64,000 bases of DNA, from assembly GCF_002278035.1 (NCBI RefSeq), contig NZ_CP022603.1, positions 1,617,501 to 1,681,500 on the forward strand, given 5' to 3'. The notes beneath the pieces were generated by a model. It was not told the origin of the DNA and ran no database searches. It was given only the letters and a program-made list of their open reading frames with translations. Position 1 is the first letter of the stretch, and each line of letters begins with the position of its first letter. The position numbers and the translations under genes were made by a program. Positions 3,187 through 42,702 of this stretch are shown piece by piece. Source of the DNA: Ochrobactrum quorumnocens. GTDB taxonomy: Bacteria; Pseudomonadota; Alphaproteobacteria; Rhizobiales; Rhizobiaceae.

Positions 3187-4260
3187 ATGAAAAAGAAAAA
3201 GTCCTTTACGATCAGAGATATTGCCGAGAACGCGGGTGTTTCACCCGCGACCGTGTCGCTTGTTCTGAATGGCAAAGGCGAGATTTCAGGGGAGACGCGT
3301 GCGCGGGTTCTTGAGTCGGTGTCCCGTCTCAATTACGTGCCGCGCGCAGCCAAAACCGGGTCGGGCGGCGGGGAGACGATCCGTTTTCTTAAAATTGCCA
3401 AGCATGGCGAAACGGTCAACCGCGATCACAGTGTTTTCGTTTCCGATTATATCGATGGCATGTCGTCGGAAGCGACGCGCCGCAATTACACGCTTGAAGT
3501 GGTGAGCTTTGAAGGGCAGCCGATCAGTGCGGTTGCTGAATCGCTGGCCGGTGCGCCGATCCGGGGCGTGATTGCGCTTGGAACCGAGTTGTCAGCGGCA
3601 GATATCCACATGATTCAGGGGCTCGGCCTGCCCACTGTTTTCATTGATACATTTTATGAGGTCATTGAAGCCAACTTTGTCGACATGAACAATGAAGATG
3701 CGGTGTTCAAAGTTCTGTCGCGCTTTAAACAGCTCGGTTTTTCGCGCATTGGATTCGTCGCCAGTCATACCGAAACCACGAATTTCCGTCTTCGCCGCGA
3801 TGCGTTTTTCAAGAATATGCAGCGACTGGACCTAAACGTTCAGGAGCGTGACATTCTCTCGGTTGAATCAACTTATGAGGGTGCGCATCGCGATACTTGT
3901 GCGATGTTGCATTCGGGGCTAGATCTGGCTGAATGCTATTTCTGCACCAACGATATCATAGCCTATGGCCTCATCCGGGCGCTGAAGGGTAAGGGCATTC
4001 GCATTCCAGACGACGTTTCTGTCATTGGCTTCGATAATTTGCCGCAAAGTGCGACTATGGAGCCGGGGCTTACAACGGTTGAAGTCTCTAAACGCAAGAT
4101 CGGCAATCTTGCGGTGACCGTTCTGGATGATCTGATCAACACGGCTGAAGCGCAACCGCCAGTCAAAATCCTGGTCGGTGCGAACCTTGTCATTAGATCA
4201 AGCGATTCCGGTGTTGCTGCAAAGATTGTGGCCCCAAAGACCGGCGCTTTTACAAGCTAA
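3187..4260 (+). CDS. LacI-family transcriptional regulator
   Basis: A 357-residue repressor. Residues 7-55 are a LacI helix-turn-helix (TIRDIAENAGVSPATVSLVL) with a hinge helix up to about residue 60. Residues about 70-340 are a periplasmic-binding-like effector domain (Peripla_BP_3), including the conserved GLIRALKGKGIRIPDDVSVI stretch of the family. It diverges from importer 1, and two matching palindromes sit in the 201-bp intergenic region, so it most likely represses the importer and itself until the imported sugar or its derivative binds. The length is normal for the family. Confidence 0.93.
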   Translation: MKKKKSFTIRDIAENAGVSPATVSLVLNGKGEISGETRARVLESVSRLNYVPRAAKTGSGGGETIRFLKIAKHGETVNRDHSVFVSDYIDGMSSEATRRNYTLEVVSFEGQPISAVAESLAGAPIRGVIALGTELSAADIHMIQGLGLPTVFIDTFYEVIEANFVDMNNEDAVFKVLSRFKQLGFSRIGFVASHTETTNFRLRRDAFFKNMQRLDLNVQERDILSVESTYEGAHRDTCAMLHSGLDLAECYFCTNDIIAYGLIRALKGKGIRIPDDVSVIGFDNLPQSATMEPGLTTVEVSKRKIGNLAVTVLDDLINTAEAQPPVKILVGANLVIRSSDSGVAAKIVAPKTGAFTS

Positions 4261-11400: not shown

Positions 11401-11679
11401 CTACCGCGCACAGGCGAACCAAGGCCCGTGATCGTTTTTTAGTAGATCACGTTCCTGACGCAAAAGTTCGTTTTCTTTACGAAGACGGGCAAGCTCCTGG
11501 CTCATGTCCTCATGCGGACCAGAAAGCAGATATTTCTCAGCAAAATTACGCCGCCAACGGTCAAGCGTTGATTTGCCAATACCAAGGTCTTCCGCAACCG
11601 ATGAAATGCTTCGACCACTCGTTGTTAAAATACGAACAGCTTCCCTTTTGAAATCTTCTGTAAATTCTCGCTGCTTCAA
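11401..11679 (-). pseudogene. IS3-family OrfA, truncated transposase subunit
   Basis: A 92-residue OrfA-like protein with an N-terminal helix-turn-helix (EFTEDFKREAVRILTTSGRS and IGKSTLDRWRRNF) and a C-terminal leucine zipper (LARLRKENELLRQERDLLK). After the A6 run that usually hosts the frameshift, the sequence departs from the family and stops within 14 codons. The partner OrfB is absent, so it cannot support transposition on its own. Confidence 0.75.
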
Positions 11680-11816: not shown

Positions 11817-13340
11817 TCACTCGACGGGTTCAAACTCCCCCGGCTTCCAGGTCTTGTCGAACCATGGCTCCAGCGGGCCGTAGAGGCGAAGAAGGACGTT
11901 CCAGCCCTTGCCTGGAACTGTCTGAACCCAGTTGGCCTCATGATCTTTTGGTGCTGTCGGTCCGAACCAGACATCGACTGAAGAGTCGGCGTTGATGACA
12001 ATGTCTTTCTTGTCGCTGCCGATGCTCGGAAATTGTTGGTCCGTCTGCAGCATCGACCGTGTCTGGTTGTCGTACACAACGAACGACCAGAATTCCTTTG
12101 CCGGAATGTTCGGCGGCAGGTGTATCTTGTAGGTCTTGCCGCCATCGAACGGCTTGCCGTGCTTGTCAGTCGTGGCGCCGGCGTATTGCGAACCGATACC
12201 GACGCGCTTTATCGCCATCGCGGGTGTGACACCCGTCGCGTAGTAGTGGAACAGGACGCGGGCATCCAGATAACGGACGCCGGGCTGGAGAAGAAACTCG
12301 TAGTTGCCGCCGACAAAGCCGGTGAACCAGGCACTGTCGGGATAATAATAGGCGTCCTTCATGCGGGACTTGAAGGTGATTGTGCGCGCCGTAGCATTGC
12401 CGACTGCCACGGCTTCAGTCAGGATATTCTTCATCCGTTCGTCCGGTGCGAAAGGTTTGCCTTTTGCAATGCCGATGGCGGCGAGCTGCCCCAGCACTTC
12501 CGGGTGGTAGGCCCCGTTTGGCTCGTATTGGACGATGTTGTTCACTTCCTCATAGAAGTGAAAATCATTGGCATGGATGGTGTTGAACTCCTTGCCCGAG
12601 ACATTGACGATTTTCATCGGCGGCGGATTGCTGGCCTCCGACAGGGGATAGACCTTGGCGAACTTCCTGGTGTTTCCGACCGCGGTCGCGGTGCTGCCAT
12701 TGTCGAGGAAGCCGCGCCAGAAGAAGAGATTTCCGTAGGTCGACGTCCGCAACACAAAATAGCCTTCGGGAATCTCGCCTTCATAGCCTGGTGGCAAAAG
12801 CAGGTACTTTCCACCCTTGCCCTTGTCCGGACCGGCATTGCCGACATCGCCGACGTATTCGAACCAGTGGTTGTCGATCATGCCCAGGATGTTGGGCGGC
12901 GTCTCGATGACCAGCGGACCAGCCTTCGTGTCCAGCCACATCAGATTGTAGATGCTCTCGGTGTTTCCGGTAAGGAACAGCGAATGTGAGTCCATGAGGC
13001 TTTCAAAGATCAGGATGGTCTGATTGTTGTCGGCTCCCTGGCTTGCCAATCCCACCCGCATGGCTTCGACGGAAGCGCCGGGCATGGCATTAAGAAAGAC
13101 ATCGACGCCGCGCATGAAATCGAGATTGTCGTAAATCTTCTCCGAGGTGGCGTCGTCCGGGAAGCCGTCGAAGAAGTTTAGTTTGCCAATCCTGGTGTCT
13201 ACACGCTCCGGTGTGACGATCGACGCTGGTATAGGCGTCGTCATCTTCGTCCTGGGTGCAGTTTGCCCGTACGCGGCTCCGGCAAGAAGCGCTAACGCCG
13301 GGGCCACTCCAAGCAGGGTTTTCGTAGATAAAATCATCAT
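11817..13340 (-). CDS. DUF1254/DUF1214 secreted protein (paralogue A)
   Basis: A 507-residue exported protein. Residues 1-25 are a signal peptide (cleavage after AYG). The N-terminal half matches the DUF1254 style and the C-terminal region (PAKEFWSFVVYDNQTRSML, then WFGPTAPKDHEANWVQTVPG) is the DUF1214 domain. The biochemical role of this family is not established. A 21-bp dyad shared with four other promoters in this block lies 94 nt upstream of the start. Codon third positions look more GC-rich than in the flanking genes, suggesting acquisition. A second, diverged family member is at 17672-19135. Confidence 0.88.
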   Translation of the reverse strand: MMILSTKTLLGVAPALALLAGAAYGQTAPRTKMTTPIPASIVTPERVDTRIGKLNFFDGFPDDATSEKIYDNLDFMRGVDVFLNAMPGASVEAMRVGLASQGADNNQTILIFESLMDSHSLFLTGNTESIYNLMWLDTKAGPLVIETPPNILGMIDNHWFEYVGDVGNAGPDKGKGGKYLLLPPGYEGEIPEGYFVLRTSTYGNLFFWRGFLDNGSTATAVGNTRKFAKVYPLSEASNPPPMKIVNVSGKEFNTIHANDFHFYEEVNNIVQYEPNGAYHPEVLGQLAAIGIAKGKPFAPDERMKNILTEAVAVGNATARTITFKSRMKDAYYYPDSAWFTGFVGGNYEFLLQPGVRYLDARVLFHYYATGVTPAMAIKRVGIGSQYAGATTDKHGKPFDGGKTYKIHLPPNIPAKEFWSFVVYDNQTRSMLQTDQQFPSIGSDKKDIVINADSSVDVWFGPTAPKDHEANWVQTVPGKGWNVLLRLYGPLEPWFDKTWKPGEFEPVE

Positions 13341-13423: not shown

Positions 13424-13444
13424 AGTATGTTACAGTTGCACGAG
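13424..13444 (-). promoter_or_regulatory. 21-bp dyad, site A (upstream of DUF1254 gene A)
   Basis: AGTATGTTACAGTTGCACGAG is the weakest copy of the shared dyad CGTATGnTACnGTAnCATACG: the left half matches well and the right half partly. Its centre (13434) is 94 nt upstream of the start at 13340, the same placement as in sites B-E. Confidence 0.6.
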
Positions 13445-13484
13445 CTGTAGGATGCGGCGTTAAAGCAGCGCTGCCGAGTTTCGG

Positions 13485-14261
13485 CTAGAACTTCACCGCC
13501 AGTCGCGTGAAGGTGCCGTGTTGGGTGGCTTCATAGCGGAAGCCGCCGTCCGTGTAGTCGGTGTAGAGCGCCTTGTAGCCGAAAGACGAAGCGATCGTGT
13601 CCGTCCAGTTGTAGCCGACCGTCGTGGTACCCTGAAGCGTGATATCCGAGGAGACGCCGAAGCCGCCGACATCTGCCATGACGTCCATGAACCATTTGTT
13701 GTTGATGTCATAGTGCATAGTAAAACCGACAATCGGATCGACCCAGCTTTGCGAACCACTGCGGTCGACCGCCGGGAAGAACGCGGGATCGATGCTGAGT
13801 TTCACCTCATTGTGCTGGTACCGAAGGCCGCCGGTCGCGTAGAGCTGCATATTCTCGACGGTAAGAGGCAGCTCGTAACCAACAAGGGCCGTCGCGACGA
13901 TCTGTTTCTGCTCGAAGTGAGCGGTTCCACCCAATGGACCGACATCGGCTTCGGTTGAAATCTTGGCCCACATGGCATCCGTGTAGAGAAGCCAGCTGTC
14001 ACCGACCGCTTGAAACGATCCGGCGAACACGCCGTCGAGGTCCTCAAACACGTCCAGAGGCGAGACGTCGACAGCTGCGGCGGGAAGGTCACGCAAACCG
14101 ATGTTGCCATTCAACCCCGCCAGCCAGCCGTCGAGCGTGATCTGGTATTTCCAGCCGGTATTGACGACAGCCGATACCGGCTCCGAAACGTCGGCTGCGC
14201 CCGCACGTGCCACAGCGAGAGCCAATGCCAGCCCGCAATAGGCAATTTTCATTTCAATCAT
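13485..14261 (-). CDS. Outer-membrane beta-barrel-like protein
   Basis: A 258-residue protein with a signal peptide (about residues 1-22, ending AGA) and alternating hydrophobic/polar strands, closing with a C-terminal aromatic residue (TFTRLAVKF), the mark of BamA-dependent outer-membrane proteins. Segments such as YATGGLRYQHNEVKL and FGYKALYTDYTDGGF resemble barrel strands of OmpA/Omp25-type small barrels. The start at 14261 is used; an ATG at 14252 is possible. Site B of the 21-bp dyad family lies 95 nt upstream. Function is unknown. Confidence 0.82.
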   Translation of the reverse strand: MIEMKIAYCGLALALAVARAGAADVSEPVSAVVNTGWKYQITLDGWLAGLNGNIGLRDLPAAAVDVSPLDVFEDLDGVFAGSFQAVGDSWLLYTDAMWAKISTEADVGPLGGTAHFEQKQIVATALVGYELPLTVENMQLYATGGLRYQHNEVKLSIDPAFFPAVDRSGSQSWVDPIVGFTMHYDINNKWFMDVMADVGGFGVSSDITLQGTTTVGYNWTDTIASSFGYKALYTDYTDGGFRYEATQHGTFTRLAVKF

Positions 14262-14345
14262 CCGAGCCGTCTCCCCGTCTCACAGGCTCCGACAATTGCC
14301 AGAGTTATTCCCGCCATCACCCTATCCGATAAAACCGAAAACTTC

Positions 14346-14366
14346 CGTATGTTACCGTATCATCGG
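14346..14366 (-). promoter_or_regulatory. 21-bp dyad, site B (upstream of outer-membrane protein)
   Basis: CGTATGTTACCGTATCATCGG matches CGTATGnTACnGTAnCATACG perfectly in the left half and through GTAnCAT on the right. Its centre is 95 nt upstream of the start codon at 14261. Confidence 0.72.
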
Positions 14367-14376
14367 TCCCCTCGGA

Positions 14377-14715
14377 CTATTGGCGCGACCACTTCTGCGA
14401 CTCGCAGACCACCTTCATCACGCAGCCCTTGAGGGTGACCGTGTCGCCGGAGACACTGATGGTTCCGTTGTAGGTCTTCTTCGCATGGGGATCAGTAATC
14501 TTGCCGGAATAGCTGCCACCGCCTCCTTCGAACGCGCCGATCTTCTCGCCCGCATGCTTGCCGCTCTTGAGCGTTATACAAAATCCGCTGCCGCACGGCT
14601 GGATCGCGGCGGTGTCACCAAGCGTCGTCTTCCAGTTTCCGACAATCGGCTCGGCTGCGCTCGCAAGTCCGGTCGACATCAAAAGCGCGGTGATAGAGAT
14701 CAGTATGGATTTCAT
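14377..14715 (-). CDS. DUF2147-type small secreted protein
   Basis: A 112-residue protein with an 18-20-residue signal peptide (ending ASAAE) and a body that starts EPIVGNWKT, a lipocalin-like/DUF2147 opening, with paired cysteines (PCGSGFC and C-terminal KGCVMKVVC) suited to disulfides in the periplasm. I chose the ATG at 14715 because GAGGA lies 8 nt upstream; the frame extends to 14769 without a good ribosome site. Site C of the shared dyad is centred 94 nt upstream. The stop codon lies 11 nt from site B of the next gene. Confidence 0.8.
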   Translation of the reverse strand: MKSILISITALLMSTGLASAAEPIVGNWKTTLGDTAAIQPCGSGFCITLKSGKHAGEKIGAFEGGGGSYSGKITDPHAKKTYNGTISVSGDTVTLKGCVMKVVCESQKWSRQ

Positions 14716-14798
14716 AGCTACGTCCTCGCATGGCTGGCCCGCCAAAGGACCGATAGCCGAATGGATCACACGTACGCTGCCGACCGCAAGAAACCCGT

Positions 14799-14819
14799 CG
14801 TATGTTACTGTATCCTACA
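14799..14819. promoter_or_regulatory. 21-bp dyad, site C (upstream of DUF2147 gene)
   Basis: CGTATGTTACTGTATCCTACA matches the consensus CGTATGnTACnGTAnCATACG at all left-half positions and most of the right half. Its centre (14809) is 94 nt upstream of the start at 14715 and about 97 nt upstream of the divergent gene at 14906, so it could serve both. Confidence 0.72.
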
Positions 14820-14905
14820 TGGTGTCGGCCGGATTTTGTGTCATCTTCATGATGACTACGCGGATGTGCGAGAGCCCTCACGTCGCCGGGCCGGGAGCCG
14901 ATGGA

Positions 14906-15172
14906 ATGGAAAACTACACGGAGTTCGCCAAGCGCAAGTTTCCCGAGCAGGCCCTTGAAATCGAAGCGCTTGCCTCGAGAAATGAAAGCTTCCGAGAACT
15001 GTGCAACGACTTTTCCATCGCCGACCAGCTCGTACGGGAATGGGAGTCGTCGACGGCTCCGGAGCGAGACGAACGCCATGCCGAGGCGCTCGAACTCATG
15101 GATGGCCTCGGCAAGGAGATCCACATCATGCTTGACCTCGCCAGGGTCGTGCCATTCCCTCCCGCGAGATGA
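14906..15172 (+). CDS. Hypothetical acidic helical protein
   Basis: An 88-residue, charged, all-helical-looking protein (YTEFAKRKFPEQALEIEAL, then RNESFRELCNDFSIADQLV) without signal peptide or membrane segment. I chose the ATG at 14906, with GGAG 9 nt upstream; the frame is open further 5' but those residues overlap the DUF2147 gene. It diverges from that gene with site C between them. I do not recognise the family; the pattern recalls small cytoplasmic proteins encoded near two-component or stress genes in rhizobia. Confidence 0.65.
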   Translation: MENYTEFAKRKFPEQALEIEALASRNESFRELCNDFSIADQLVREWESSTAPERDERHAEALELMDGLGKEIHIMLDLARVVPFPPAR

Positions 15173-15307
15173 ACGCGCGATCTCCGCATCATCGCGGCAC
15201 TGCGGCGGCCTCTAGAAAGAAATTACATGGCTCGACTGATGGCGACCATTCTCATCTCCACGTTCGACTGATCGTGGGAAGCCATCGACACGTCGATGCC
15301 GCTATGC

Positions 15308-15328
15308 CGTAACCTACAGTAACATACG
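15308..15328 (+). promoter_or_regulatory. 21-bp dyad, site D (upstream of small secreted protein)
   Basis: CGTAACCTACAGTAACATACG has a perfect right half and a partial left half of CGTATGnTACnGTAnCATACG. Its centre (15318) is 100 nt upstream of the ATG at 15418. It is the one site that points to a plus-strand gene. Confidence 0.72.
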
Positions 15329-15334
15329 GAGGAA

Positions 15335-15421
15335 ATGGCGTTGGTCGAGGTAAAGTGCGCCTTGTCAGAAATCCGCGAGGAGCAGTTTCACCACGCCCTC
15401 AGCCAGGGACGGAACTCATGA
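15335..15421 (+). CDS. Possible 28-codon leader ORF coupled to the next gene
   Basis: ATG at 15335, directly after GGAGG at 15328-15332, opens a 28-codon frame (starting MALVEVKCALSEIREEQ) whose TGA overlaps the ATG of the following gene as ATGA. The overlap suggests translational coupling, but the Shine-Dalgarno spacing is short and no homologue is recognised, so it may be fortuitous. Confidence 0.3.
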   Translation: MALVEVKCALSEIREEQFHHALSQGRNS

Positions 15422-15801
15422 ACCTCTACAAGCTCATTCAGCATTTTCAGAAACTCGCGACGGCCACGGTCCTACTGACGATGGTGGCCGCACCAATGCT
15501 CGCTCCGGCCCAGGCCGAAACCCGTCGTGGGGTGGCTGGCTGCGGAGCCAGAGGATGTGCGGCCGTTGGCAGTCGCGGCGCTGCCGTAGTCCGTCGCCCG
15601 CCCGTCATGAGCGGCGTCGTCATCGTCAACCCTCGCCGTTATTGGCCTGCGGGTGGTGCGATTGCGGCGGGAGCTGCCATCGGCTTCATAGCAGGCGCGG
15701 CGGCGGCATCGGTTGCTGGGACACCGCCTCAGTCTGGCATGTGTTGGTATTATACCGACAGCACCAAAAAGACGGGTTTCTGGGACGTCTGTCCGCGATA
15801 A
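15418..15801 (+). CDS. Small secreted Ala/Gly-rich protein
   Basis: A 127-residue protein with a signal peptide (residues 1-33, ending PAQA), a basic Ala/Gly-rich segment with a C-G-A-R-G-C pair, a hydrophobic Gly/Ala stretch (AAGAAIGFIAGAAAASVAG) that could insert in a membrane, and a C-terminal GMCWYYTDSTKKTGFWDVCP motif seen in small rhizobial exported proteins. A longer frame opens at 15355, but the ATG at 15418 fits the signal peptide and the fixed distance from site D. Function is unknown. Confidence 0.72.
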   Translation: MNLYKLIQHFQKLATATVLLTMVAAPMLAPAQAETRRGVAGCGARGCAAVGSRGAAVVRRPPVMSGVVIVNPRRYWPAGGAIAAGAAIGFIAGAAAASVAGTPPQSGMCWYYTDSTKKTGFWDVCPR

Positions 15802-15880
15802 CACGCGAACAGCATAACTGTCTGTCGCATTGATAGCTACGGTCTTCATTCGGAACGCTTGATTGCGCATCGATGTGAGA

Positions 15881-17191
15881 ATGCTAATGGGGATGACTTG
15901 CTTGTGTAACGCGTCGACTGCCGGACATATCCGGCGACTTCTTCCATGCCTTGTGCTTGTCGTACTCGCTGCTTGCGGCGGACACCCGAAAGACGTACTG
16001 AGCCCCGTTGCGGACACCGTGCCAGAGTCCAGCCGCGTCGACATGCTGATCGCGACGACGCGCGCCCGATCGACCGTCCCCGGCGAGATGTTCACGGGTG
16101 AACGCGCCCGAACGCCCTCCTTCGCACAGATGAGAGTCTCACTGCCCAAAGTCCGCAAGGAAGGCGACGTCGCCTGGCCAAAGAAGCTGCCTTCAAATCC
16201 GGAAACCGACTTCGCCACCCTGAAGGCCGACGAACTCAGCCTTGATGGCGCGAAAGGCTGGCTGAACGCCTCGGTTAGAAGAAACCCCGACCAAAGCGTC
16301 CTGGTCTTCATCCACGGCTTCAACAACCGCTTCGAAGACAGCGTCTACCGGTTCGCCCAGATCGTCTACGATTCCAATGTCCGCAGCACGCCGATCCTTG
16401 TGACATGGCCATCGCGCGGCAGCCTGCTCGCCTACGGTTATGACCGCGAGAGCACCAACTACACCCGCAACGCCCTTGAAACGCTCTTCCAGTATCTCGC
16501 TAAAGACAAAGAGGTAAAGGAAGTCAACGTGCTGGCCCACTCAATGGGCAACTGGCTGGCACTAGAGGCGCTCCGCCAGATGGCAATTCGCAATGACGGT
16601 CTTCCGGCGAAGTTCAAGAACGTCATGCTCGCCGCTCCCGATGTCGACATCGATGTCTTCCGCTCGCAGATCGACGATATGGGCGACCCGCATCCGAAGT
16701 TCACCCTGTTCGTCTCGAGTGACGATAAGGCGCTCGCATTCTCACGGCGGGTTTGGGGCGATATCCCGCGATTGGGGTCTATCGATCCCGAAAGCGCGCC
16801 CTACAAGGCTGAACTTGCCGACTACAAGATTTCTGTCATCGATCTGACGAGGATCAAGGTCAGCGACAATCTCAATCACAGCAAGTTCGCCGAATCCCCG
16901 GAAGTCGTCCAGCTCATCGGCGCACGGCTATCCCAAGGGCAGACGCTCACCGACAGCCGGGTTGGTCTTGGCGACACCATCCTGGCCGGAACAACTGGTG
17001 TGGCGGCCGCCGCCGGCAGTGCAGCGGGGCTGGTTCTTACGGCTCCAGTCGCCGTGCTTGACGCAGATACGCGGGGGAATTACGCCGATCATGTTGGCGG
17101 CCTGACCGGACAAGGCAGCGGAAGACAAAAGATTGCGGTCAAGAACTGCGCAGCAACGCCGACCGACCCGGCATGCAGGAAGCAGCGATAG
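15881..17191 (+). CDS. Lipoprotein alpha/beta hydrolase (DUF900 type)
   Basis: A protein of about 436 residues with a lipobox-type signal peptide (LVVLAACGG, Cys as lipidation site) and a DUF900 alpha/beta-hydrolase domain: VFIHGFNNRFEDSVYRFAQ (oxyanion region), nucleophile elbow LAHSMGNW with catalytic Ser, then AAPDVDIDVF and a late His (LNHSKF). DUF900 proteins are esterase-like, often envelope associated; the substrate is unknown. The start is uncertain: ATG 15881 is used, a TTG at 15863 and an ATG at 15887 are alternatives. The C-terminal 70 residues are Ala/Gly-rich and low in complexity. Confidence 0.82.
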   Translation: MLMGMTCLCNASTAGHIRRLLPCLVLVVLAACGGHPKDVLSPVADTVPESSRVDMLIATTRARSTVPGEMFTGERARTPSFAQMRVSLPKVRKEGDVAWPKKLPSNPETDFATLKADELSLDGAKGWLNASVRRNPDQSVLVFIHGFNNRFEDSVYRFAQIVYDSNVRSTPILVTWPSRGSLLAYGYDRESTNYTRNALETLFQYLAKDKEVKEVNVLAHSMGNWLALEALRQMAIRNDGLPAKFKNVMLAAPDVDIDVFRSQIDDMGDPHPKFTLFVSSDDKALAFSRRVWGDIPRLGSIDPESAPYKAELADYKISVIDLTRIKVSDNLNHSKFAESPEVVQLIGARLSQGQTLTDSRVGLGDTILAGTTGVAAAAGSAAGLVLTAPVAVLDADTRGNYADHVGGLTGQGSGRQKIAVKNCAATPTDPACRKQR

Positions 17192-17205
17192 CAGGAGGCG
17201 CCAGC

Positions 17206-17286
17206 ATGAGTTCTATCATCCTTGGCCCGCTCGTCTGCATCTGCATGTTCCGAATGATCGCTGATCATCGGCAGTCTTGTCCGTAA
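17206..17286 (+). CDS. Possible 26-residue peptide after the hydrolase
   Basis: ATG at 17206 follows AGGAGG by 7 nt, an ideal ribosome site, and opens a 26-codon frame starting MSSIILGPLVCICMF, hydrophobic at the N-terminus. It lies 14 nt after the hydrolase stop. No family is recognised; the ribosome site is the only support. Confidence 0.3.
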   Translation: MSSIILGPLVCICMFRMIADHRQSCP

Positions 17287-17671
17287 CCGCCTCCCAGACC
17301 ATCACCTGGACGCCGAATCAAAGGACGTGATGCGCCTGTCGACGACAGTCGTCTGCACGTTGTTTGCCCTTGCCCTCGAGCAGCGGATTGATCGGCAAAC
17401 AGTGTTCACAACAACGTCGAAGCCTAGTTGCGGACCTCCGCTGCCCGCTTGGGGGCTACCCTGCACTGCATGCAGCTCCTTTCGCGGACTGGCTGGCGGC
17501 TGGTGGCAGAGGGTCGACTTATCAGGCTTTCCGCGGCAGCCGGTTTAAGACCGAGCACGCAGCACGACGAGCGAACTTCGCTTTCCTTCACTAAGTTGTA
17601 GAGATCACGTCGACCGTCGTACCGTGATATCCATGTCCTTGAGACGGAGGGAGGGGCCTAATCCGCGTCTT
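17287..17671. other. Intergenic stretch, nothing supported
   Basis: I see no gene, clear terminator or repeat here. Short frames (for example 17327-17548) have atypical composition and no ribosome site. Confidence 0.5.
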
Positions 17672-19135
17672 CTATGAAACCCGCTTTACACCGGGCGGCT
17701 GCCATGTCCCTCCACCCGCCGGCAAGATGGACGGTGGCGTAGTCTTCGGCCAATACAGCCGCATCACGAGATAGATTTTACCATCCGGGGCAGGAAGCCA
17801 ATTTGCCTCCTTGTCTGCACCGGGGCTGTCTTTCTGGACGTACAGCGTCAGCGAGCCGTCCACGTCCTTCTTCATCGCCGAAACCATCGGAGAGTTGATG
17901 AGGTAGCGGTTGATCGGATTCTTGACGAGGAGCTGGCTTTTACCGTCGTACATGGTCACGGACCAAAACGAATGCACCGGCGGCAACTGGCCGGGTGCGA
18001 AGGTGATGGTATACTTGTGCTTGCTACCATCCAGCGGTTCCCCGCTTACATCCGTTCTGGTGAAGGGATACATTGCTTCCGCGGCATCGTTGCCATAGAG
18101 GCCGGCCTTGGCAGCCCCCGCCCGCATCAGCCAATCGCCATTGTAGAAGGCCTCGTCACCAAGAAGCGCGCTGACGTTCCAGCCGTTGATCGGCTTGTTG
18201 CCACTGGCCAGCCATTTATTAATTTTATCGTCACCCTGCTTCATGCCTATCAGCAATTCGGCTTTGTGTTCGAGCGACAGATCCTTGAACGCGAGTGTCT
18301 TGCCAGGACCGATGCCGATCTTTGCAAGCTTGGTACGGATTGCTTCGTCCCTTGGTGTCTCCGGGACGAACTGCAGTGCCACGTCGAGATATTTGAAGAA
18401 GTTCTCCTTGATACCGGCAGTTGTGGCGGGTGCGAAGTCGATTGTCGGAGCGGCAGACGGAGCCTTTTGTTCAAGGAAGGCCGAAAGCGGTTGCGCCTTG
18501 TAGCCGGACTGCACCTTCTTCACATTCGGCATATCTTCAGCGTTGATAAGCTGTGTCCGAAAGTTGGCGAATACGAACGGGGTGGACGATCGGAAGACCT
18601 GTTTGATGCGCTCCGGCTTCTCTCCCTTCCAGTCAGGGGCGACCACGAGATAGGACCCCGGTTCGTTACCCGTGGCACGCGAGCCGATATAGCCAAAGTT
18701 ATAGGTGTTGCCGTCAACCAATTGAACCGAGTAGTAGCGGTCCTTTTCGACTGCGGGGACCGAGATGACCATTGGTTCAGTGCGCAAATCCAGCCAGAGG
18801 AACGAGTATGGCGTGTCGCTGTTCGGCGTGATGATCGCCGTATCATCGGGACTGGCGACCGTATGCATGTTATAAATCTCGTTAAAGGGCGCCTTGAACT
18901 GCCCGGAATTCCTGTCCACGGCGAACTCATGCATGACCGCATAGTTCATCACGAGCGGCAGGCCGTAGATGAAGCCTTCTTCGGCGATATTCCTGGCCTC
19001 CAGTAGTCTGGGCCATTCGGCATTGTCCTGTGCGACAGCCGTGGTGGACTTCGCCATCGTCGCGAAGAGTGCGGCCATCGCGGCTGAGCGAAGCAGATCG
19101 CGTTTTGTAAGCAATTGAATGTCCTTTCGGTTCAC
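17672..19135 (-). CDS. DUF1254/DUF1214 exported protein (paralogue B)
   Basis: A 487-residue DUF1254 (about residues 75-205, e.g. NSDTPYSFLWLDLRTEPMVI) plus DUF1214 (about 360-475, PPVHSFWSVTMYDGKSQLLV) protein. The N-terminus (TKRDLLRSAAMAALFATMA) is a signal peptide with a Tat-like KR rather than RR, so Sec or Tat export is undecided. It is a diverged relative of the gene at 11817-13340. Unlike the other envelope genes here, it has no recognisable copy of the 21-bp dyad at the expected place. Confidence 0.88.
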   Translation of the reverse strand: MNRKDIQLLTKRDLLRSAAMAALFATMAKSTTAVAQDNAEWPRLLEARNIAEEGFIYGLPLVMNYAVMHEFAVDRNSGQFKAPFNEIYNMHTVASPDDTAIITPNSDTPYSFLWLDLRTEPMVISVPAVEKDRYYSVQLVDGNTYNFGYIGSRATGNEPGSYLVVAPDWKGEKPERIKQVFRSSTPFVFANFRTQLINAEDMPNVKKVQSGYKAQPLSAFLEQKAPSAAPTIDFAPATTAGIKENFFKYLDVALQFVPETPRDEAIRTKLAKIGIGPGKTLAFKDLSLEHKAELLIGMKQGDDKINKWLASGNKPINGWNVSALLGDEAFYNGDWLMRAGAAKAGLYGNDAAEAMYPFTRTDVSGEPLDGSKHKYTITFAPGQLPPVHSFWSVTMYDGKSQLLVKNPINRYLINSPMVSAMKKDVDGSLTLYVQKDSPGADKEANWLPAPDGKIYLVMRLYWPKTTPPSILPAGGGTWQPPGVKRVS

Positions 19136-19249
19136 AGTGCGCTAGCATGCGCAGTTAGCAGGATAAGTCAGGCGGCGGTCCACAATGATTGTACTGGACC
19201 CAAGTGCCGGATATGATCGCTCTCGATGTAGATGCGCGGTCGTTAGCGC

Positions 19250-20086
19250 CTATTTTGGAAACAGGAACGTCAACCCGAGACGGAAGCCGAGCCCTTCGGG
19301 ACCGTTGTCTGGAGCGGCTGCCCAGTATCGAAGCCCCGCGGTTACACTGATTGGCTGCTTGTTCACCCTCACCAGCTTGGAAACTGTCAGATTGATGGGT
19401 ACCGACCATTCCTTCGCCTTCCAGTCGAATGTGGATTCGGTGTTCAGCGCGAACGTCCATGCGGTTGGCGTTGTGTAAGAAAGAAAGGGCTGCACGAACG
19501 TGTTACTTATATCGTTGCGATCCTCGTTGCCCGCGAACGACCAGATATGGTTTGCCAGTGCGCCATAGGTCCAAGGGCCGTCCTGCTTTAGCGCGACAAC
19601 TGTCGGCCCAGCGCCCCATTTCTCGCCACCAAGCAGATCGTCGGTTGCGGTCGGGATCAGGAAGACGGGACCTGCGCCCCAGATGAGACCGCCCTCGGTT
19701 GGTTTGGACGGCGACAGAAACAAACTTTGCACAACGTCGCCGAGACCGAACTGCGATCCGGATGGCCCGGCGATATCGTTCTGGTAGGTCAAGGGCAGGA
19801 CGGTGCGGGAGATCAGGTTCCAGTCGGCGTTCAGTGAGATCGGAATCACGGGTTGGATGTTCAGCGTTGTCTTGTTACCATCAAGCGGGCCATAGCCGTG
19901 ATCATGGTTCAACTGGAACGGAACGCTGATCAGCGACGCGATCGGGTTCGAAAGCTTCTTGGCGAGATCAGCGCTGGAATCCTGACCGTAGGCTGTCGAT
20001 CCCATGCCAAGCGTCGCTGCGACGGCGAGCGTCAGAGCTGCCTTTCGGTGCCGGATGCGGGAAGATGCGGTTGTGGCCAATTCCAC
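19250..20086 (-). CDS. Outer-membrane transporter-like beta-barrel protein
   Basis: A 278-residue exported protein with a long signal peptide (residues 1-36, ending AYGQ) and repeated barrel-like strands (LNADWNLISRTVLPLTYQND; LIWGAGPVFLIPTATDD; GLRYWAAAPDNGPEGLGFRL) ending in FLFPK. It resembles the MetA/phenol-degradation type outer-membrane proteins often found near DUF1254 genes. Site E of the 21-bp dyad family is centred 100 nt upstream. It follows the regulator gene at 20201-22003 on the same strand. Confidence 0.82.
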   Translation of the reverse strand: MELATTASSRIRHRKAALTLAVAATLGMGSTAYGQDSSADLAKKLSNPIASLISVPFQLNHDHGYGPLDGNKTTLNIQPVIPISLNADWNLISRTVLPLTYQNDIAGPSGSQFGLGDVVQSLFLSPSKPTEGGLIWGAGPVFLIPTATDDLLGGEKWGAGPTVVALKQDGPWTYGALANHIWSFAGNEDRNDISNTFVQPFLSYTTPTAWTFALNTESTFDWKAKEWSVPINLTVSKLVRVNKQPISVTAGLRYWAAAPDNGPEGLGFRLGLTFLFPK

Positions 20087-20175
20087 TATGCTCCGTCTGA
20101 TGTCGAGGTTGACGGTGAACCAGTCTGGGCATCACCTCATGCGCCGGAGAATGACGGAAACCGCCGGGAAATAAA

Positions 20176-20196
20176 CGTATGTTACTGTAGCATACG
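20176..20196 (-). promoter_or_regulatory. 21-bp dyad, site E (best copy)
   Basis: CGTATGTTACTGTAGCATACG is the clearest copy: CGTATG and CATACG arms are exact reverse complements, and the inner TAC-T-GTA is also symmetric. It lies between the regulator stop (20201) and the porin-like gene start (20086), centred 100 nt upstream of the latter. Confidence 0.78.
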
Positions 20197-20200
20197 GCCT

Positions 20201-22003
20201 TCAAAGGCCGTCTGAGGCGTTGGAAGTCCTGAACTCAGCTTCGACGTCCGTCACGCTTGGTACTGGCAGTCCGGCGCGTCGAAGCGCTTCAATTATACGG
20301 ATACTGTCCTTCGGTGGCAGGTTTCTCTTCCGGTTTTCGGCCACGATGTTGGGCAGATAGTCAGGGCGCATTTTCATGAATACCTCGCCCTCGCGCTTCG
20401 CCTCTGCCAACAGCCCCGCCTCAGAGTAGATGACCGCCGCCACGCCGTGGAAGAGTGGAAACTTCTTTAGGTCGGCTTTGCGGATCAGCCGCACCGCTTT
20501 GTCATGATCCTCAAGCATGCAGGCGATCAGGGCACGCGTGCCGAAGTAATATCCCGCTCCGCCGGGGTTGAGTTTGATCGCACGATCCAGCAGTTCCGCG
20601 CCACGCTCCCATTGCCCCGAGAACGCGACGCGCGTTCCGAGCTCGCCGAGAAACTCCGTGTCGTTTGGATTGGTGGCGAGCGCCTCCTCGCCAACCTCGA
20701 ATGCCTCCTTCGTCTCGTTGTTGAAGAACAGGGCCGCCATGAGCGCCTGAAGGGCGCGCGTGTTACCCGGCTCAAGCGAGACTGCCCGGCGTGCCGAACC
20801 GAGCGCGCGCTCCATCGCGGACCCCTTGTCACCCTGGGGATTGAACTCGAACCGGCCTTCATCGAGTTGGATGATCGAGAGCATTGACCACGCCGTCGCG
20901 TAGGCAGGGAAACGGGTGACCGCGCGTTCCAAGCAGTCGCGGGCCGCCAGATGCGCTTCCGGGTTCAGCTCCTCGCGGTATGCGTAGAAGCGCAGCGTGC
21001 AGTCATGGACGCCAACATCGTCTGGTGGCGGGTTGGCCGCCAATGATTTCGCGATGATGCCGTATGGTTGGGCGATCGCGGTCGCTACTTTGCTGGCAAC
21101 GTCGGACTGGATGGCGAAGGATTCATGTGTGTCCAGATCGTCGTCGTAGTTCTGCGACCACAGGATGGATCCGTTGGAGGTATCGACGAGGCGCACCGTC
21201 ACGCGGACCTTGTTCCCTGCAATGCGGACCCCTCCTGCGAGAAGGTAATGCGCGCCCAGTCCGTCGCGCACCTGCGATGCTGCGACGCCGGGAGACAATG
21301 CCTTCGACGTCTCGCGACCGAAGACCGTGATCTCTTTGAAGCGGGGAAGGGCGGTGAGAAGCTCCTCAGTCAGCCCGGCCGCATAGCGTGCAGCCGGCAG
21401 GCTATCTCCCATATTCGCGAATGGGGCGATCACCAGCATCGGCTCGTGCGGAAACTGCCCCACGGACCGACCGGTGTCGGGCCCCCTCAGAACGCCCGCG
21501 TAATATCCAAGCCCCGCGCAGAGGAACGCCACGAAAAAGGCCAGCACGGACCAGCCGAGCCGCCGCCATGCGAAAGTTCGGCCTGCATTCCGGGCTTCGT
21601 TCGGCTCGTTTTCGGCCACTTCCGTCGGCGCATCATTCCAGGTGAAGCTCGGCACGTAGCCGCCTTTGGGGATATCAATGCGGATCGGATCGTTCTGCCC
21701 GGCAACGAGATAGTAACGTTCGATGTGCCGGCGCAACCGTCCGGCTTCGATCCGCACGACTGGATCGTCCTGAGAAAACCCCGCGTTTCTGCCGAACACT
21801 TCGATGGCGACAGAATAGGCTTTGAGACGGTGCGCCCGGCCAGCGAGTGCTTCCTCGGTGATATATTTTAGGAAGGCTGCGCCGCGTCCTCCGCTGGGAA
21901 ACTCCCGGCTGGAAAGAATTCGCTCAAGCTGTGCCCTGACCTCATCTTGGGTCGGACAGGGGCGCTCCGCCCGCTCAACCGGCGGCGACACTGAGGTCTG
22001 CAT
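20201..22003 (-). CDS. Membrane-anchored TPR regulator with N-terminal DNA-binding-like domain
   Basis: A 600-residue protein. Residues about 15-120 form a conserved N-terminal module (FLKYITEEALAG, then DPVVRIEAGRLRRHIERYY and IPKGGYVP) found in proteins loosely annotated as adenylate-cyclase-like or ToxR-like regulators. Residues about 150-172 are one transmembrane helix. Residues about 190-330 resemble a TolB/FlgO-like domain (VIAPFANMGD; ILWSQNYDDDLDTHESFAIQ). Residues about 400-550 carry TPR-like helices. The layout suggests a one-component membrane regulator, a good candidate to bind the five 21-bp dyads nearby; this is inference from position only. Confidence 0.75.
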   Translation of the reverse strand: MQTSVSPPVERAERPCPTQDEVRAQLERILSSREFPSGGRGAAFLKYITEEALAGRAHRLKAYSVAIEVFGRNAGFSQDDPVVRIEAGRLRRHIERYYLVAGQNDPIRIDIPKGGYVPSFTWNDAPTEVAENEPNEARNAGRTFAWRRLGWSVLAFFVAFLCAGLGYYAGVLRGPDTGRSVGQFPHEPMLVIAPFANMGDSLPAARYAAGLTEELLTALPRFKEITVFGRETSKALSPGVAASQVRDGLGAHYLLAGGVRIAGNKVRVTVRLVDTSNGSILWSQNYDDDLDTHESFAIQSDVASKVATAIAQPYGIIAKSLAANPPPDDVGVHDCTLRFYAYREELNPEAHLAARDCLERAVTRFPAYATAWSMLSIIQLDEGRFEFNPQGDKGSAMERALGSARRAVSLEPGNTRALQALMAALFFNNETKEAFEVGEEALATNPNDTEFLGELGTRVAFSGQWERGAELLDRAIKLNPGGAGYYFGTRALIACMLEDHDKAVRLIRKADLKKFPLFHGVAAVIYSEAGLLAEAKREGEVFMKMRPDYLPNIVAENRKRNLPPKDSIRIIEALRRAGLPVPSVTDVEAEFRTSNASDGL

Positions 22004-23281: not shown

Positions 23282-25414
23282 CTAAAGCTCGATAGGTACT
23301 GTCACCACGATCTTCAGGCCCGGATTGTTGTCGCGTTCTTCCATCTCTCCACCAAGCCCCAGCACAATGGCATTGAGCATTTTGCTGCCAAAGCCAGTCC
23401 TGTTGCGTGTTTTGCCCGAACCATTATCTGCCACCACCAGACGGACTTGATTGAAATGCTGATCGAGCGTTACACTTGTTGGTCCGGGAGCGCCATCATA
23501 AGCATATTTATTGGCATTGGTGACGAGCTCCGAATAGACCAGTCCGATATTGATCGCTCGGTCGGCATTGATCAGGACATGTGAAAGCTTGCTGGTATGG
23601 TGGCTGCGCCATTCCTCGCCCATCGACAGAAAGAGTTCGTGGGATAGTTCATCGAGATAACGGGCAAGATCGACCGATCCGACATAGCTGTCGGAATAAA
23701 GACGGCGGTGCACGAGCGCCACGGCAGCGATACGGCTGCGTGCATCGGTGAGATACTGCACGATCAACGGGTCGTCGGTTTCGCGCATCTGCATGCCGAG
23801 AAATGTCGAGACAAGCTGAAGGCTGTTCTGCACCCGATGATTGATTTCCTTCATCAGAAAATCTTTCTGTTCCAGAAGTTTGTCCTGTCGCTCCAGAGTT
23901 CTCTGCAATTCGCGGTTCAGTCTGTCGATCCGGCGGCGTTGATAGGCTTCATGAATGACGCGGCCGATCCGCTGCATCGCGTCAACCTTGTTGAAGTTCC
24001 AGTAGCGCGACCGACCGCGCACCTCTTCTGACCATGCTTCAAATGATGCGCGTGGCGTCAATGGTGCAGAGGCGGAACTGGATATATCCTTATGCGGGTT
24101 TCCGGCCCATTCAACGATCTGCACTTTTTCAGCGCGCGACCAGACGAGAAACACATCCTCATCCAGATGCAGCTTGAGCACTGCAATGCCGCTGGCAAGC
24201 GGTATGATATGCGCGGGAAGTTCTTTCTGACGACCAAATTCATGAGAATGGAAAAGCCCATCCTTGAACTTGTTCTGCATTATGCCGAGGATGGTACGAA
24301 GATCGGAAATGTTCGGCGACGTTCCAGATTTTGCGATCAGCTTGTCGTTTGAAACAACAGCAAAGCCATCTGCGAGCATCGTCTGGCGCAGGATCTCAGC
24401 GGTTTCGGTGAAGCGTTCCTCCAATGGTGCTTTTATTAGCAGCGCTTCGACCAGCCGGTCTTCATGCGAGCGAAGTCTGAGACGCTCACGAGCGTTCTCA
24501 GCCTCGTCTTTCGACTTGATCTGTCGGGCAAGGCTTGCAGCCAGTGCACGTGCAGCAGCGCGGGTCGCAAAGGGCATGGCGAGTGGCGTTGCGTTGTGGC
24601 AGGCAATCAGCCCCCAAAGAACCCCATCCTTGATGATCGAAACCGATGCACTCGCAGCCACTCCCATATTCTGAAGATATTGCAGGTGAATGGGAGAGAC
24701 GCTGCGCAATGCGACATCGCTCAGATCAAGCGGCTGTTGTGGCTCGTCCTCATACCATCTTAGCGGGGCAGATATGTATGAGGAATCCGGTATGACACGC
24801 ACACGATTGCGCAAATAAAGCGCGCGTGCCTGTTTGGGTATATCGCTTGCTGGAAAATGATGATTGAGAAATGTCGGATAGTTGTCATTGCCGTCTTCAG
24901 CCAAGACCACGCCCGAGCCATCTTCAAGAAATTGATAGATCATAACACGGTCAAAGCCTGTCAGTTTGCTGAAAGCCACGACAGATTTCTGAAGGAGGGT
25001 CCGGACATCCGGTGCCGCCTCAAACTGATGGGCGACCGTTTCAAGGCCTGAAAGCGATTGCTCGGGTGTCACGAACGACCGCAATGCCGGTTCGATTTCA
25101 ACGAGCAGATATTCATTCAGAATATGGCCGAGCAGATCAAAGGCTTCATCACCAATGATGAGTTTGCCAAGAATGATTTCATCAGCTCTTGGAGCTTCTG
25201 CAGCCATAGCCAGCACGTCAAACTGCAACAGATAATCGATGTGCTGACCGGGCCAAGCCTCGCCGAAATAGTTTTCGAGATGTCCGGCACCGCCGACGAT
25301 CTGGCCACTGGTCAGTTTCGCAACCAGTAGCATGCCATGAGGTTGAATAGATCCGGGTATGTGTATTGGTTCGCGGTCGCAGGCAGTCTGATCAAGCGGG
25401 CTGTCTAGCGACAT
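23282..25414 (-). CDS. Bacteriophytochrome sensor histidine kinase
   Basis: A 710-residue red/far-red photoreceptor kinase. The N-terminal Cys12 precedes REPIHIPGSIQPHG, the position where biliverdin is attached. The GAF domain has FPASDIPKQARALYLRN and the chromophore-pocket HLQYLQNMGVAAS. The PHY domain carries the tongue motif PRASF. The C-terminus is an HWE/HisKA_2-type kinase with EINHRVQNSLQLVSTFL (His phosphorylation site), an N box (ELVTNANKYAYDG) and DNGSG. Start at 25414 is chosen because AGAAGG lies upstream and the Cys falls at the usual place. It overlaps the heme oxygenase gene by 23 nt. No response regulator is adjacent. Confidence 0.93.
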   Translation of the reverse strand: MSLDSPLDQTACDREPIHIPGSIQPHGMLLVAKLTSGQIVGGAGHLENYFGEAWPGQHIDYLLQFDVLAMAAEAPRADEIILGKLIIGDEAFDLLGHILNEYLLVEIEPALRSFVTPEQSLSGLETVAHQFEAAPDVRTLLQKSVVAFSKLTGFDRVMIYQFLEDGSGVVLAEDGNDNYPTFLNHHFPASDIPKQARALYLRNRVRVIPDSSYISAPLRWYEDEPQQPLDLSDVALRSVSPIHLQYLQNMGVAASASVSIIKDGVLWGLIACHNATPLAMPFATRAAARALAASLARQIKSKDEAENARERLRLRSHEDRLVEALLIKAPLEERFTETAEILRQTMLADGFAVVSNDKLIAKSGTSPNISDLRTILGIMQNKFKDGLFHSHEFGRQKELPAHIIPLASGIAVLKLHLDEDVFLVWSRAEKVQIVEWAGNPHKDISSSASAPLTPRASFEAWSEEVRGRSRYWNFNKVDAMQRIGRVIHEAYQRRRIDRLNRELQRTLERQDKLLEQKDFLMKEINHRVQNSLQLVSTFLGMQMRETDDPLIVQYLTDARSRIAAVALVHRRLYSDSYVGSVDLARYLDELSHELFLSMGEEWRSHHTSKLSHVLINADRAINIGLVYSELVTNANKYAYDGAPGPTSVTLDQHFNQVRLVVADNGSGKTRNRTGFGSKMLNAIVLGLGGEMEERDNNPGLKIVVTVPIEL

Positions 25415-25997
25415 GGTTGAAAACCTTCTGATAATTGTACTCAAAGGCACCGAATGCGGCGATGGCTGCAAAAGTGCAACGCTCTTCATCGTCGTCATCG
25501 AAAGGCGTGATGTCGATTAGCTTAAGTGTCTGATGCCATGATCGTAAATTGTTGATTTGTCTGGCAAGATGCCGTGCACCGAACTCTCCGTTAAAGCCGA
25601 GTTTTATCACTTGATCCGCACGTTCCTGAGCGCGGATGGCGGAAGCCTCCAGCGCATAAAACGTTCCGATAATAGACGGCAAATCGACGGGCTCGGTTGT
25701 CCGCTTGAAGCGCAGTACATCTGAAATGAGGTCGCCGCCGAGATCGTCAATGTCACAGGCTAAGGTTGGTTCGAGCTTGCGTTCATTCCAATCTGGTACC
25801 AGCGCTTCGATATGGCTTGTTTCCAGCATCGATTCCAGAAGCAAACAGCTTGCGAGAGTGGCTTGCAAATAGCTTTTGTATGAAGCTTCCGATCCGAGCA
25901 TGGCCAGATCGCTGCACAATAAATCAATCCGATTATGGTGAGGAGCGGTTGCCGACTTCAATCGCCAATACCGTCCTGACATCGTTTTTTGGAACAT
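25392..25997 (-). CDS. Biliverdin-producing heme oxygenase
   Basis: A 201-residue all-helical protein of the bacterial heme oxygenase (BphO/HemO) family: it opens LKSATAPHHNRID with the proximal His region, and later has IIGTFYALEASAIRAQ. It should open heme to biliverdin, the chromophore of the phytochrome whose gene overlaps its 3' end, an arrangement known from other bphO-bphP operons. The distal GxxxG helix reads LGFNGEFGA here, a little diverged. The start at 25997 has no strong ribosome site; MSG at codon 6 is an alternative. Confidence 0.85.
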   Translation of the reverse strand: MFQKTMSGRYWRLKSATAPHHNRIDLLCSDLAMLGSEASYKSYLQATLASCLLLESMLETSHIEALVPDWNERKLEPTLACDIDDLGGDLISDVLRFKRTTEPVDLPSIIGTFYALEASAIRAQERADQVIKLGFNGEFGARHLARQINNLRSWHQTLKLIDITPFDDDDEERCTFAAIAAFGAFEYNYQKVFNHVARQPA

Positions 25998-26227
25998 TAA
26001 GGAAATTCACTCCGCCTCAGAAAGGATCATATGCTTGAGCAATATTCAGGCGCATGTCTCCGCGCGCAATAACGCAGTGGGCGGCTCTTTGTTCCAATTA
26101 ATTTAAGAGATAGCTGAAAATAAAGCCGCTTTACGCAGTACGCAAATTGCAAAAGCGACTGCTCAATGAAGGAAGCCAAGATAAGAGGTTGGGCGGCATG
26201 AAAGTCCCTACCGGAGCGGGGCAGTCC

Positions 26228-26527
26228 TCAAGCAGCTTCAAGCTCATGTATTTCTGCAAGTTCATCCTTAATCGCGGCAGCTTCCGTCTTAAGGTCATAG
26301 CTTGCTTGCATGTTCATCCAAAACTCCGGCGTAGTACGAAAGAATTTGGCAAGGCGCAATGCAGTATCAGGCGTCAAAGAGGTGTATTCTTTAGCCAAAC
26401 GCTCGATACGAGTGCGCGGAACATTCAGTTCTTTGGCGAGTGCTCCGGCACTCATATTAAGCGGCACGAGATATTCTTCACGAAGGATTTCACCAGGATG
26501 AACCGGGGGTAAAATACTGAGTGTCAT
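26228..26527 (-). CDS. higA: HigA-family antitoxin (orphan copy)
   Basis: A 99-residue HigA-type antitoxin: PPVHPGEILREEYLVPLNMS, then an XRE helix-turn-helix (SAGALAKELNVPRTRIERL) and the family-typical FFRTTPEFWMNMQASYDL. It normally binds HigB toxin and the operon promoter. In this copy the upstream higB is truncated and the operator palindromes are lost, so it is an orphan antitoxin that could still neutralise the HigB encoded at 42556-42837, whose own HigA is identical in sequence. Confidence 0.9.
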   Translation of the reverse strand: MTLSILPPVHPGEILREEYLVPLNMSAGALAKELNVPRTRIERLAKEYTSLTPDTALRLAKFFRTTPEFWMNMQASYDLKTEAAAIKDELAEIHELEAA

Positions 26528-41946: not shown

Positions 41947-42199
41947 TAAGAACGCGCAAGATATTTCAGACAAGCAGTTGCAGGCAGGCGTGGAATTGAA
42001 AAAATGCTCCGATCTTCTGGGCATTCTCGGTTACGAGTTGGTAGTTCGCACCGCAGGTATGGGAATGACTATTGAAGACATAGCGGGCAAAGAGCGCCGA
42101 CGCCGAGATCATGCCACTGACAGCCTTCGAGGATGTTTAGAGGTGCTGGCTGTCCGGTGGGGGTATTCAAACGCTAAGATTAGAGGGTGGGCGGCATGA
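41947..42199 (+). pseudogene. 3' part of the phage gene split by the IS66-family element
   Basis: The frame continues from the target duplication as KNAQDISDKQLQAGVELKKC, LGILGYELVVRTAGMGMTIE and CLEVLAVRWGYSNAKIRGWA to the stop at 42199. It completes the 136-residue protein begun at 37553. The C-terminus resembles helix-turn-helix-like tails of small Rhizobiales prophage proteins. Translation could restart only from internal codons. Confidence 0.8.
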
Positions 42200-42702
42200 A
42201 AGGCCCCGCCGGAGCGGGGCAGTCATCAAGCAGCTTCAAGCTCATGTATTTCTGCAAGTTCATCCTTAATCGCGGCAGCTTCCGTCTTAAGGTCATAGCT
42301 TGCTTGCATGTTCATCCAAAACTCCGGCGTAGTACGAAAGAATTTGGCAAGGCGCAATGCAGTATCAGGCGTCAAAGAGGTGTATTCTTTAGCCAAACGC
42401 TCGATACGAGTGCGCGGAACATTCAGTTCTTTGGCGAGTGCTCCGGCACTCATATTAAGCGGCACGAGATATTCTTCACGAAGGATTTCACCAGGATGAA
42501 CCGGGGGTAAAATACTGAGTGTCATAGGAACCTCCTATAGGTGTCCAACCGAGGATCAGTGATAATCAACAATCTCGACCTGTTCAGCGCCTGCGTCTGT
42601 CCAAACGAAGCAAACGCGCCACTGGTCGTTAATTCTGATTGAATGCTGTCCCTGACGATCCCCTTTGAGTGCCTCAAGCCGATTGCCGGGAGGAGACCGA
42701 AG
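42188..42702. repeat. higBA direct repeat, copy 2
   Basis: Near-identical to 26190-26704, offset exactly 15,998 bp. This copy belongs to a complete higBA operon; homology ends inside higB at the GAAG before 42703. Confidence 0.9.
42226..42525 (-). CDS. higA: HigA-family antitoxin
   Basis: A 99-residue HigA antitoxin with XRE helix-turn-helix (SAGALAKELNVPRTRIERL) and FFRTTPEFWMNMQASYDL. It is identical in sequence to the copy at 26228-26527. It follows higB by 30 nt with AGGAGG-like AGGTTCC context, neutralises HigB and represses the operon through palindromes at 42855-42908. Confidence 0.93.
   Translation of the reverse strand: MTLSILPPVHPGEILREEYLVPLNMSAGALAKELNVPRTRIERLAKEYTSLTPDTALRLAKFFRTTPEFWMNMQASYDLKTEAAAIKDELAEIHELEAA

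Follow-up and report, generated by a model that had tools for sequence, protein, structure and literature searches.

A recurrent box upstream of envelope genes in Ochrobactrum quorumnocens and a candidate membrane-tethered regulator

Boxes and genes of the envelope block

The window analysed here is the whole stretch of 64,000 nt at positions 1,617,501 to 1,681,500 of contig NZ_CP022603.1 from Ochrobactrum quorumnocens. Within it a short box recurs upstream of genes for envelope proteins, and beside the last copy lies the gene of a 600-amino-acid candidate regulator. A first-pass annotation had described the boxes as five copies of a 21-bp dyad, each at a set distance from a start codon. The boxes and genes of this envelope block are listed below, with the outer-membrane and porin-like names being the readings of that annotation.

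11817-13340, minus strand: DUF1254/DUF1214 protein (Pfam), target of box 1
13424-13444, minus strand: box 1, a weak copy with just the proximal half, 94 nt upstream of the DUF1254/DUF1214 gene
13485-14261, minus strand: outer-membrane protein, no Pfam family over the cut-off, target of box 2
14346-14366, minus strand: box 2, 95 nt upstream of the outer-membrane protein gene
14377-14715, minus strand: DUF2147 protein, target of box 3
14799-14819, both directions: box 3, 94 nt from the DUF2147 gene and 97 nt (from its centre) from the 88-amino-acid gene
14906-15172, plus strand: 88-amino-acid protein, second target of box 3
15308-15328, plus strand: box 4, 100 nt upstream of the small secreted protein gene
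15418-15801, plus strand: small secreted protein, target of box 4
15863-17191, plus strand: DUF900 alpha/beta hydrolase (Pfam), following the small secreted protein gene
17672-19135, minus strand: second DUF1254/DUF1214 gene, without a box of its own
19250-20086, minus strand: porin-like protein, no Pfam match, target of box 5
20176-20196, minus strand: box 5, 100 nt upstream of the porin-like gene
20201-22003, minus strand: candidate regulator of 600 amino acids, adjoining box 5

The centre-to-start distances given earlier (94, 95, 94, 100 and 100 nt) were correct, while the count of five copies and their shared symmetry stood in part. Mismatches to the consensus CGTATGNTACNGTANCATACG numbered 5, 2, 2, 2 and 0 for boxes 1 to 5 in order, leaving four sites at 0 to 2 mismatches and a first box that keeps only its gene-proximal half. 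Read in gene direction, GTAACATAC was present at all five boxes, so this proximal half is the invariant part, and the upstream half varied across the sites. Only box 5 is an exact dyad. Box 4 lies closer to a direct repeat, GTAACCTAC-A-GTAACATAC, with 8 of 9 positions agreeing in the direct sense and 6 of 9 in the inverted. We rejected the strict 21-bp dyad as a complete description because it holds at one site only, and a pair of half-sites fits better. The direct-repeat character of box 4, the second target of box 3 and the regulator gene beside box 5 are additions to the first-pass annotation.

At three or fewer mismatches the consensus matched four times in the window (boxes 2 to 5), while 100 shuffles gave a mean of 0.02, and in the whole 5.65-Mb genome the same four places were the only matches (reversed control, 0). 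A random spread of the motif over the genome was thus not observed. Box 1 was retained in a second genome of the genus (G010, L036:2160). Across 11 orthologous loci, site bases were identical at 711 of 779 positions and other intergenic bases at 3411 of 5315 where alignments reached the site, a count that omits 14 of the 55 locus-promoter pairs (3 failing on alignment score, 11 with the site unaligned). With those 11 pairs kept and unaligned bases scored as different, the values were 723/988 (73%) for the sites and 4161/7498 (55%) for intergenic DNA. In this recount site conservation exceeded the intergenic level at four promoters and fell below it at box 4 (27% vs 37%), where 8 of the 11 alignments end before reaching the box.

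Two genes of the block have no box directly in front of them. The DUF900 hydrolase gene is probably cotranscribed with the small secreted protein gene before it, judging from the spacing, and the second DUF1254/DUF1214 gene is probably in an operon with the porin-like gene, which would give the block about six transcription units.

A regulator family that accompanies the box

The protein encoded at 20201-22003 has a predicted layout of a winged-helix-like domain that Pfam does not recognise (residues ~19-122), a membrane helix (~148-170) and an alpha/beta part with TPR-like repeats (~190-597). In the predicted structure model the N-terminal domain adopts an OmpR/PhoB-type winged-helix fold, and the membrane helix is placed after it at 152-169. 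Hydropathy exceeded 1.6 only in 19-residue stretches starting at 148-154 (maximum 2.0), which points to a single membrane helix. Among the 7999 best candidates scored there were 1784 homologues at E 1e-10 or better, the closest, from Ochrobactrum vermis, being 91% identical. Many relatives bear the database name 'adenylate cyclase'; a cyclase function was rejected for the window protein, in which no cyclase domain was found by Pfam to E 0.1 or by NCBIfam to E 0.01. These scans returned TPR-type matches, plus weak matches to FlgO, HilA or similar families only.

We examined the linkage between this protein and the box from both directions. Many of the loci compared are related, so their counts are not independent, and start codons came from a home-made gene caller save where records were annotated. 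Starting from the regulator and searching with TACNGTAACNTAC (at most one mismatch), we found a site within 10 kb in 22 of 23 loci whose regulator is at least 50% identical over most of its length (at least 548 bits; window included). The same search gave a site in 2 of 15 loci of a regulator type 39-42% identical to the window protein, and in 5 of 27 other loci with weaker or shorter matches, 4 of the 5 having a related box. In a scan of named genomes, using the best 80 of 178 confirmed loci, 75 of the 80 carried the box core, with 317 matches in total; the reversed pattern gave 15, and 20 permuted patterns gave between 1 and 54. Homologous loci have thus for the most part retained the box. 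Rhizobium johnstonii 3841 has two members of the subfamily (L168, L193). The full inverted box (at most two mismatches) was present in 61 of 78 loci of the window subfamily, in 0 of 16 loci of the 39-42% type and in 0 of 19 more distant loci. The 78 are the 80 named loci minus L221, placed with the 39-42% type, and L220, which was omitted; the 19 come from the 27 others, with L035, L039, L041, L049, L050, L054, L061 and L062 omitted.

Of the five loci that lack the core, three (L162, L181, L191) have a regulator with two DNA-binding domains, and at L181 and L191 half-site pairs lie directly behind the regulator despite the lack of an ordinary core. Such proteins, of ~735 amino acids with the two domains in tandem, were also seen at L211 and in P0041, P0045 and P0076.

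Starting from the motif, exact TACNGTAACATACG matched 12 times in 394 genomes of the family, a number not above the reversed control (13). Eleven of the 12 matches were within 10 kb of a regulator at least 57% identical to the window protein (the twelfth, in G068, was not); one of them stood 74 nt and another 87 nt before the regulator's aligned start. A regulator at least 53% identical was found in 9 of the 394 genomes, with an exact match in 5 of these 9 vs 1 of the 385 others (Fisher p 1e-8). A second search, for the full palindrome with one mismatch in 297 order-level genomes that partly overlap the 394, gave 11 distinct sites vs 7 reversed. Six of the 11 were beside a subfamily regulator (G000, G249, G184), and for three (G184:C65, G649, G651) no family member was found on the same contig. 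Two others, in different families of the order, were within 300 nt of distant members: G560:C369:3058 (27% identical; G560 holds 17 such matches) and G515:C2:229558 (24-39%).

Promoter geometry, half-sites and targets

A set of 92 loci yielded 253 distinct box centres, 11 of them inside a called gene. A called start followed 20-250 nt downstream of 220 of the 253 centres, with a peak at 90-110 nt (68) and a smaller one at 40-60 nt (37). Where matches were confined to a single strand, the stronger half was toward the gene 78 times and away from it 17 times. A promoter profile was built from the 168 site-gene pairs whose start lies 60-130 nt away, reduced to 94 non-redundant promoters; their box consensus was GTATGTTACNGTAACATAC. 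The most informative positions downstream, counted from the box centre, were +38 (T, 0.45 bits) and +34 (A, 0.40), then +28 (T, 0.33). The hexamer NANNNT began at +33 in 41 of the 94 promoters, while other offsets averaged 3.9 (sd 2.5) and never exceeded 15; its first base was rarely T (TANNNT in 5). We read this hexamer as a -10 element at the position expected for one; the box would then cover about -54 to -36 with its stronger half facing the promoter, a placement of the activator type. Two boxes of the window are followed by candidate elements at the same offset:

15351-15356, plus strand: candidate -10 element TAAAGT, +33 to +38 from the centre of box 4
20148-20153, minus strand: candidate -10 element CATTCT, +33 to +38 from the centre of box 5

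Two other explanations are addressed by this geometry. The same regulator could bind the box and repress, the box blocking polymerase until a signal releases it. The box does abut the -35 position, and it precedes the regulator's own gene in 47 of the 92 loci, as in autorepression. Yet contact with polymerase would fit both the constant distance to the -10-like element and the orientation of the stronger half; the profile shows poor conservation of the -35 adjoining the box, and CadC of Escherichia coli is an activator according to PMC5430869. We consider repression unlikely. That the boxes are some other conserved DNA or RNA feature, such as a terminator, the end of a mobile element or an RNA structure, is hardly credible: their inverted-repeat character would fit, but they stand upstream of starts, occur in a direct form too and keep their distance to the -10-like element.

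Half-site pairs occurred in three arrangements, of which the strict dyad is just one. At one mismatch or fewer, the 92 loci contained inverted ATGTTAC-N1-GTAACAT 92 times, direct GTAACAT-N3-GTAACAT 23 times and everted GTAACAT-N5-ATGTTAC at 22 sites in 20 loci; every other spacer from 0 to 11 gave at most 2 pairs each. All three arrangements amount to two 9-mers one base apart, and hence one helical turn. The everted sites (L155:8372, L177:5049, L188:18518 and others) lie 113-351 nt from the next called start on the right, where one exists, and often precede genes that resemble DUF900 or DUF2092 genes by their N-termini.

The 39-42% type shows a variant of the box. A direct-form box, GTAANATACNNGANNATAC, was present in 11 of 16 of its loci (L128-L141, L042, L221; reversed 0), although it was found by reading upstream sequences and fitted on 15 of the 16 loci later counted; k-mer discovery in those 15 loci was dominated by GC-rich words. 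In 9 of the 15 a copy (at most three mismatches) stood 52-63 nt before an in-frame regulator start. The predicted recognition helix of this type is nearly identical to that of the window regulator. The direct-form pattern also matched, at two or fewer mismatches, in 51 of the 78 window-subfamily loci (64 sites; reversed 1), so the direct arrangement is not private to the 39-42% type; of the 31 sites there at one mismatch or fewer, 18 coincide at least in part with ordinary boxes, while the remaining 13 are separate from them. A third type (L039, L049, L050, L054) has GTAACGTAC half-sites in TTACNGTAACGTAC-like boxes beside a distant regulator and is perhaps a second regulon with a different half-site dialect; at three of these loci we take the neighbouring N-termini to resemble sulfatase, FGE or porin-like proteins.

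These arrangements bear on the possibility that an unlinked soluble dimeric regulator, for example of TetR type, binds the box and that the 600-amino-acid protein is merely a member of the regulon. Regulators of TetR or GntR type typically have operators of this kind, a 19-bp palindrome, and the gene of the 600-amino-acid protein itself often has a box. Set against this, box and protein family coincide in the motif-first searches, the related box of the 39-42% type comes in another arrangement with nearly the same predicted recognition helix, direct-repeat half-sites are unlike the operator of a rigid symmetric dimer, and any other regulator family reached at most 10 of the 80 named loci. An unlinked regulator is improbable on these grounds.

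Assigned from one representative per family, the families downstream of boxes were led by the 88-amino-acid protein (57 of the 92 loci, upheld when the window protein was compared directly) and the regulator itself (47), followed by DUF1254 (21), DUF900 (20), DUF2147 (19), a borderline-DUF481 protein (16), the small secreted protein (14), HlyD (14), a Cys-rich repeat protein (12), the porin-like protein (11), DUF3300 (11), sulfatase (7), FGE (5) and glycoside hydrolase (5), with DUF3604 (4), DUF2092 (4), HdeA (2) and a few others being rarer. Many of the targets look exported or membrane-bound, while the 88-amino-acid protein, the commonest, does not (N-terminus, by eye), and the longest homologue of the latter among the loci had no Pfam match.

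A nearly full-length regulator at least 57% identical was found in 3 of 35 genomes of the genus (the window's own, G010 and G017). On rhizobial plasmids (7 annotated records out of 10 fetched, 3 being without annotation) the regulator has as neighbours DUF1254, DUF2147, alpha/beta hydrolase, OmpA and similar genes in differing combinations. The patchy presence and the varying combinations support the earlier proposal of a co-acquired block, and the linkage of motif and regulator supports its single DNA-binding regulator. Among rhizobial-group bacteria from soil and plants the regulator appears to travel with envelope genes; regulator and regulon look as if they move as one.

Several other features of the window were recorded. 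A transposase-like open reading frame at 11401-11679 (PHROG transposase matches) adjoins the edge of the envelope block and fits a mobile origin. A 300-nt direct repeat, 98% identical, occupies 26175-26474 and 42173-42472, its copies 15,998 bases apart, and could be the boundary of a duplicated or mobile segment. At 23282-25997 lies what is presumably, by the look of the sequence, a bacteriophytochrome-type kinase gene beside a haem-oxygenase-like gene; a search gave a kinase match for the first gene only.

Proposed mechanism and comparison with known systems

On this evidence we consider it likely that the product of the gene at 20201-22003 uses the boxes as its operators. It would be a membrane-anchored one-component regulator, working like CadC of E. 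coli and controlling a mobile envelope regulon. Its cytoplasmic winged-helix domains, joined by a flexible linker to one membrane helix, would bind as a pair to two 9-bp GTAACATAC-type half-sites spaced by one helical turn and located immediately before the -35 position. The alpha/beta-TPR part, in the periplasm, would sense a signal and so lead to activation of envelope and periplasmic genes, and regulator and targets would move together as a block. We infer the direct and pairwise binding, the activation and the periplasmic sensing side from the linkage, geometry and predicted layout described above. In keeping with the first-pass annotation, whose author knew of no regulon with this site, none of the titles listed from the open-licence literature reported this regulon.

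A wider reading stands at about even chances. The proteins named 'adenylate cyclase' or 'TolB-like' may form a large class of membrane-tethered activators that has gone unrecognised. Their DNA-binding domain would lie outside all Pfam families, and the flexibly linked domains would read GTAACAT pairs in any orientation so long as these are exactly one turn apart; each subfamily would have a half-site dialect and a mobile envelope regulon of its own, some members having two DNA-binding domains per chain. For the misnamed family the analysis offers a function open to testing, a predicted operator and a set of target genes, many of them in DUF families, and the operator allows target lists for each subfamily to be read from genomes. 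Three orientations at one pitch also pose a sharp question on how tethered winged-helix domains recognise DNA.

HilA joins an OmpR-type domain to TPRs. Membership of HilA/EilA (NF009037) was rejected for the window regulator, of which residues 245-521 match weakly at 18.3 bits, far below the curated cut-off of 589; the match leaves out the DNA-binding domain, and the window regulator, unlike that family, has a membrane helix. It also differs from OmpR/PhoB response regulators in that no receiver domain was seen in the Pfam scan and no Trans_reg_C (PF00486) match was obtained, to E 0.1 for the regulator or to E 1 for any of 42 DNA-binding domains, and in that the half-sites here are inverted, everted or direct. 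A profile of its DNA-binding domain found no match among Trans_reg_C domains of the same genome, a weak comparison as only 3 of the 12 fetched loci gave a domain.

The closest parallel is CadC, the ToxR-like regulator of cadBA. The layout predicted here, a DNA-binding domain followed by a membrane helix and an alpha/beta plus TPR-like part, parallels that of CadC, and the modelled DNA-binding domain likewise has a winged-helix fold. In Foldseek the putative sensor part matched CadC (3lya) at rank 12 (E 4.2e-6, 319 columns), with unrelated TPR proteins scoring higher, and CadC was absent among the 50 VIA matches listed. No sequence similarity was detectable in the DNA-binding domain, and since the window regulator lacks a PF00486 match we do not file it as a ToxR-like/CadC member, only as a protein working like one. 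The targets also differ, being envelope genes here, many of them in DUF families. According to PMC5430869, the Cad1 site contains GTAAACAT and an imperfect inverted copy, modelled as bound head-to-head by CadC. The GTAACAT half-site found here resembles GTAAACAT. In the same paper the Cad1 41-mer covers -153 to -113 and a preference of CadC for AT-rich DNA is described, whereas the box described here spans 19 bp, has a pitch of one turn and would lie near -45.

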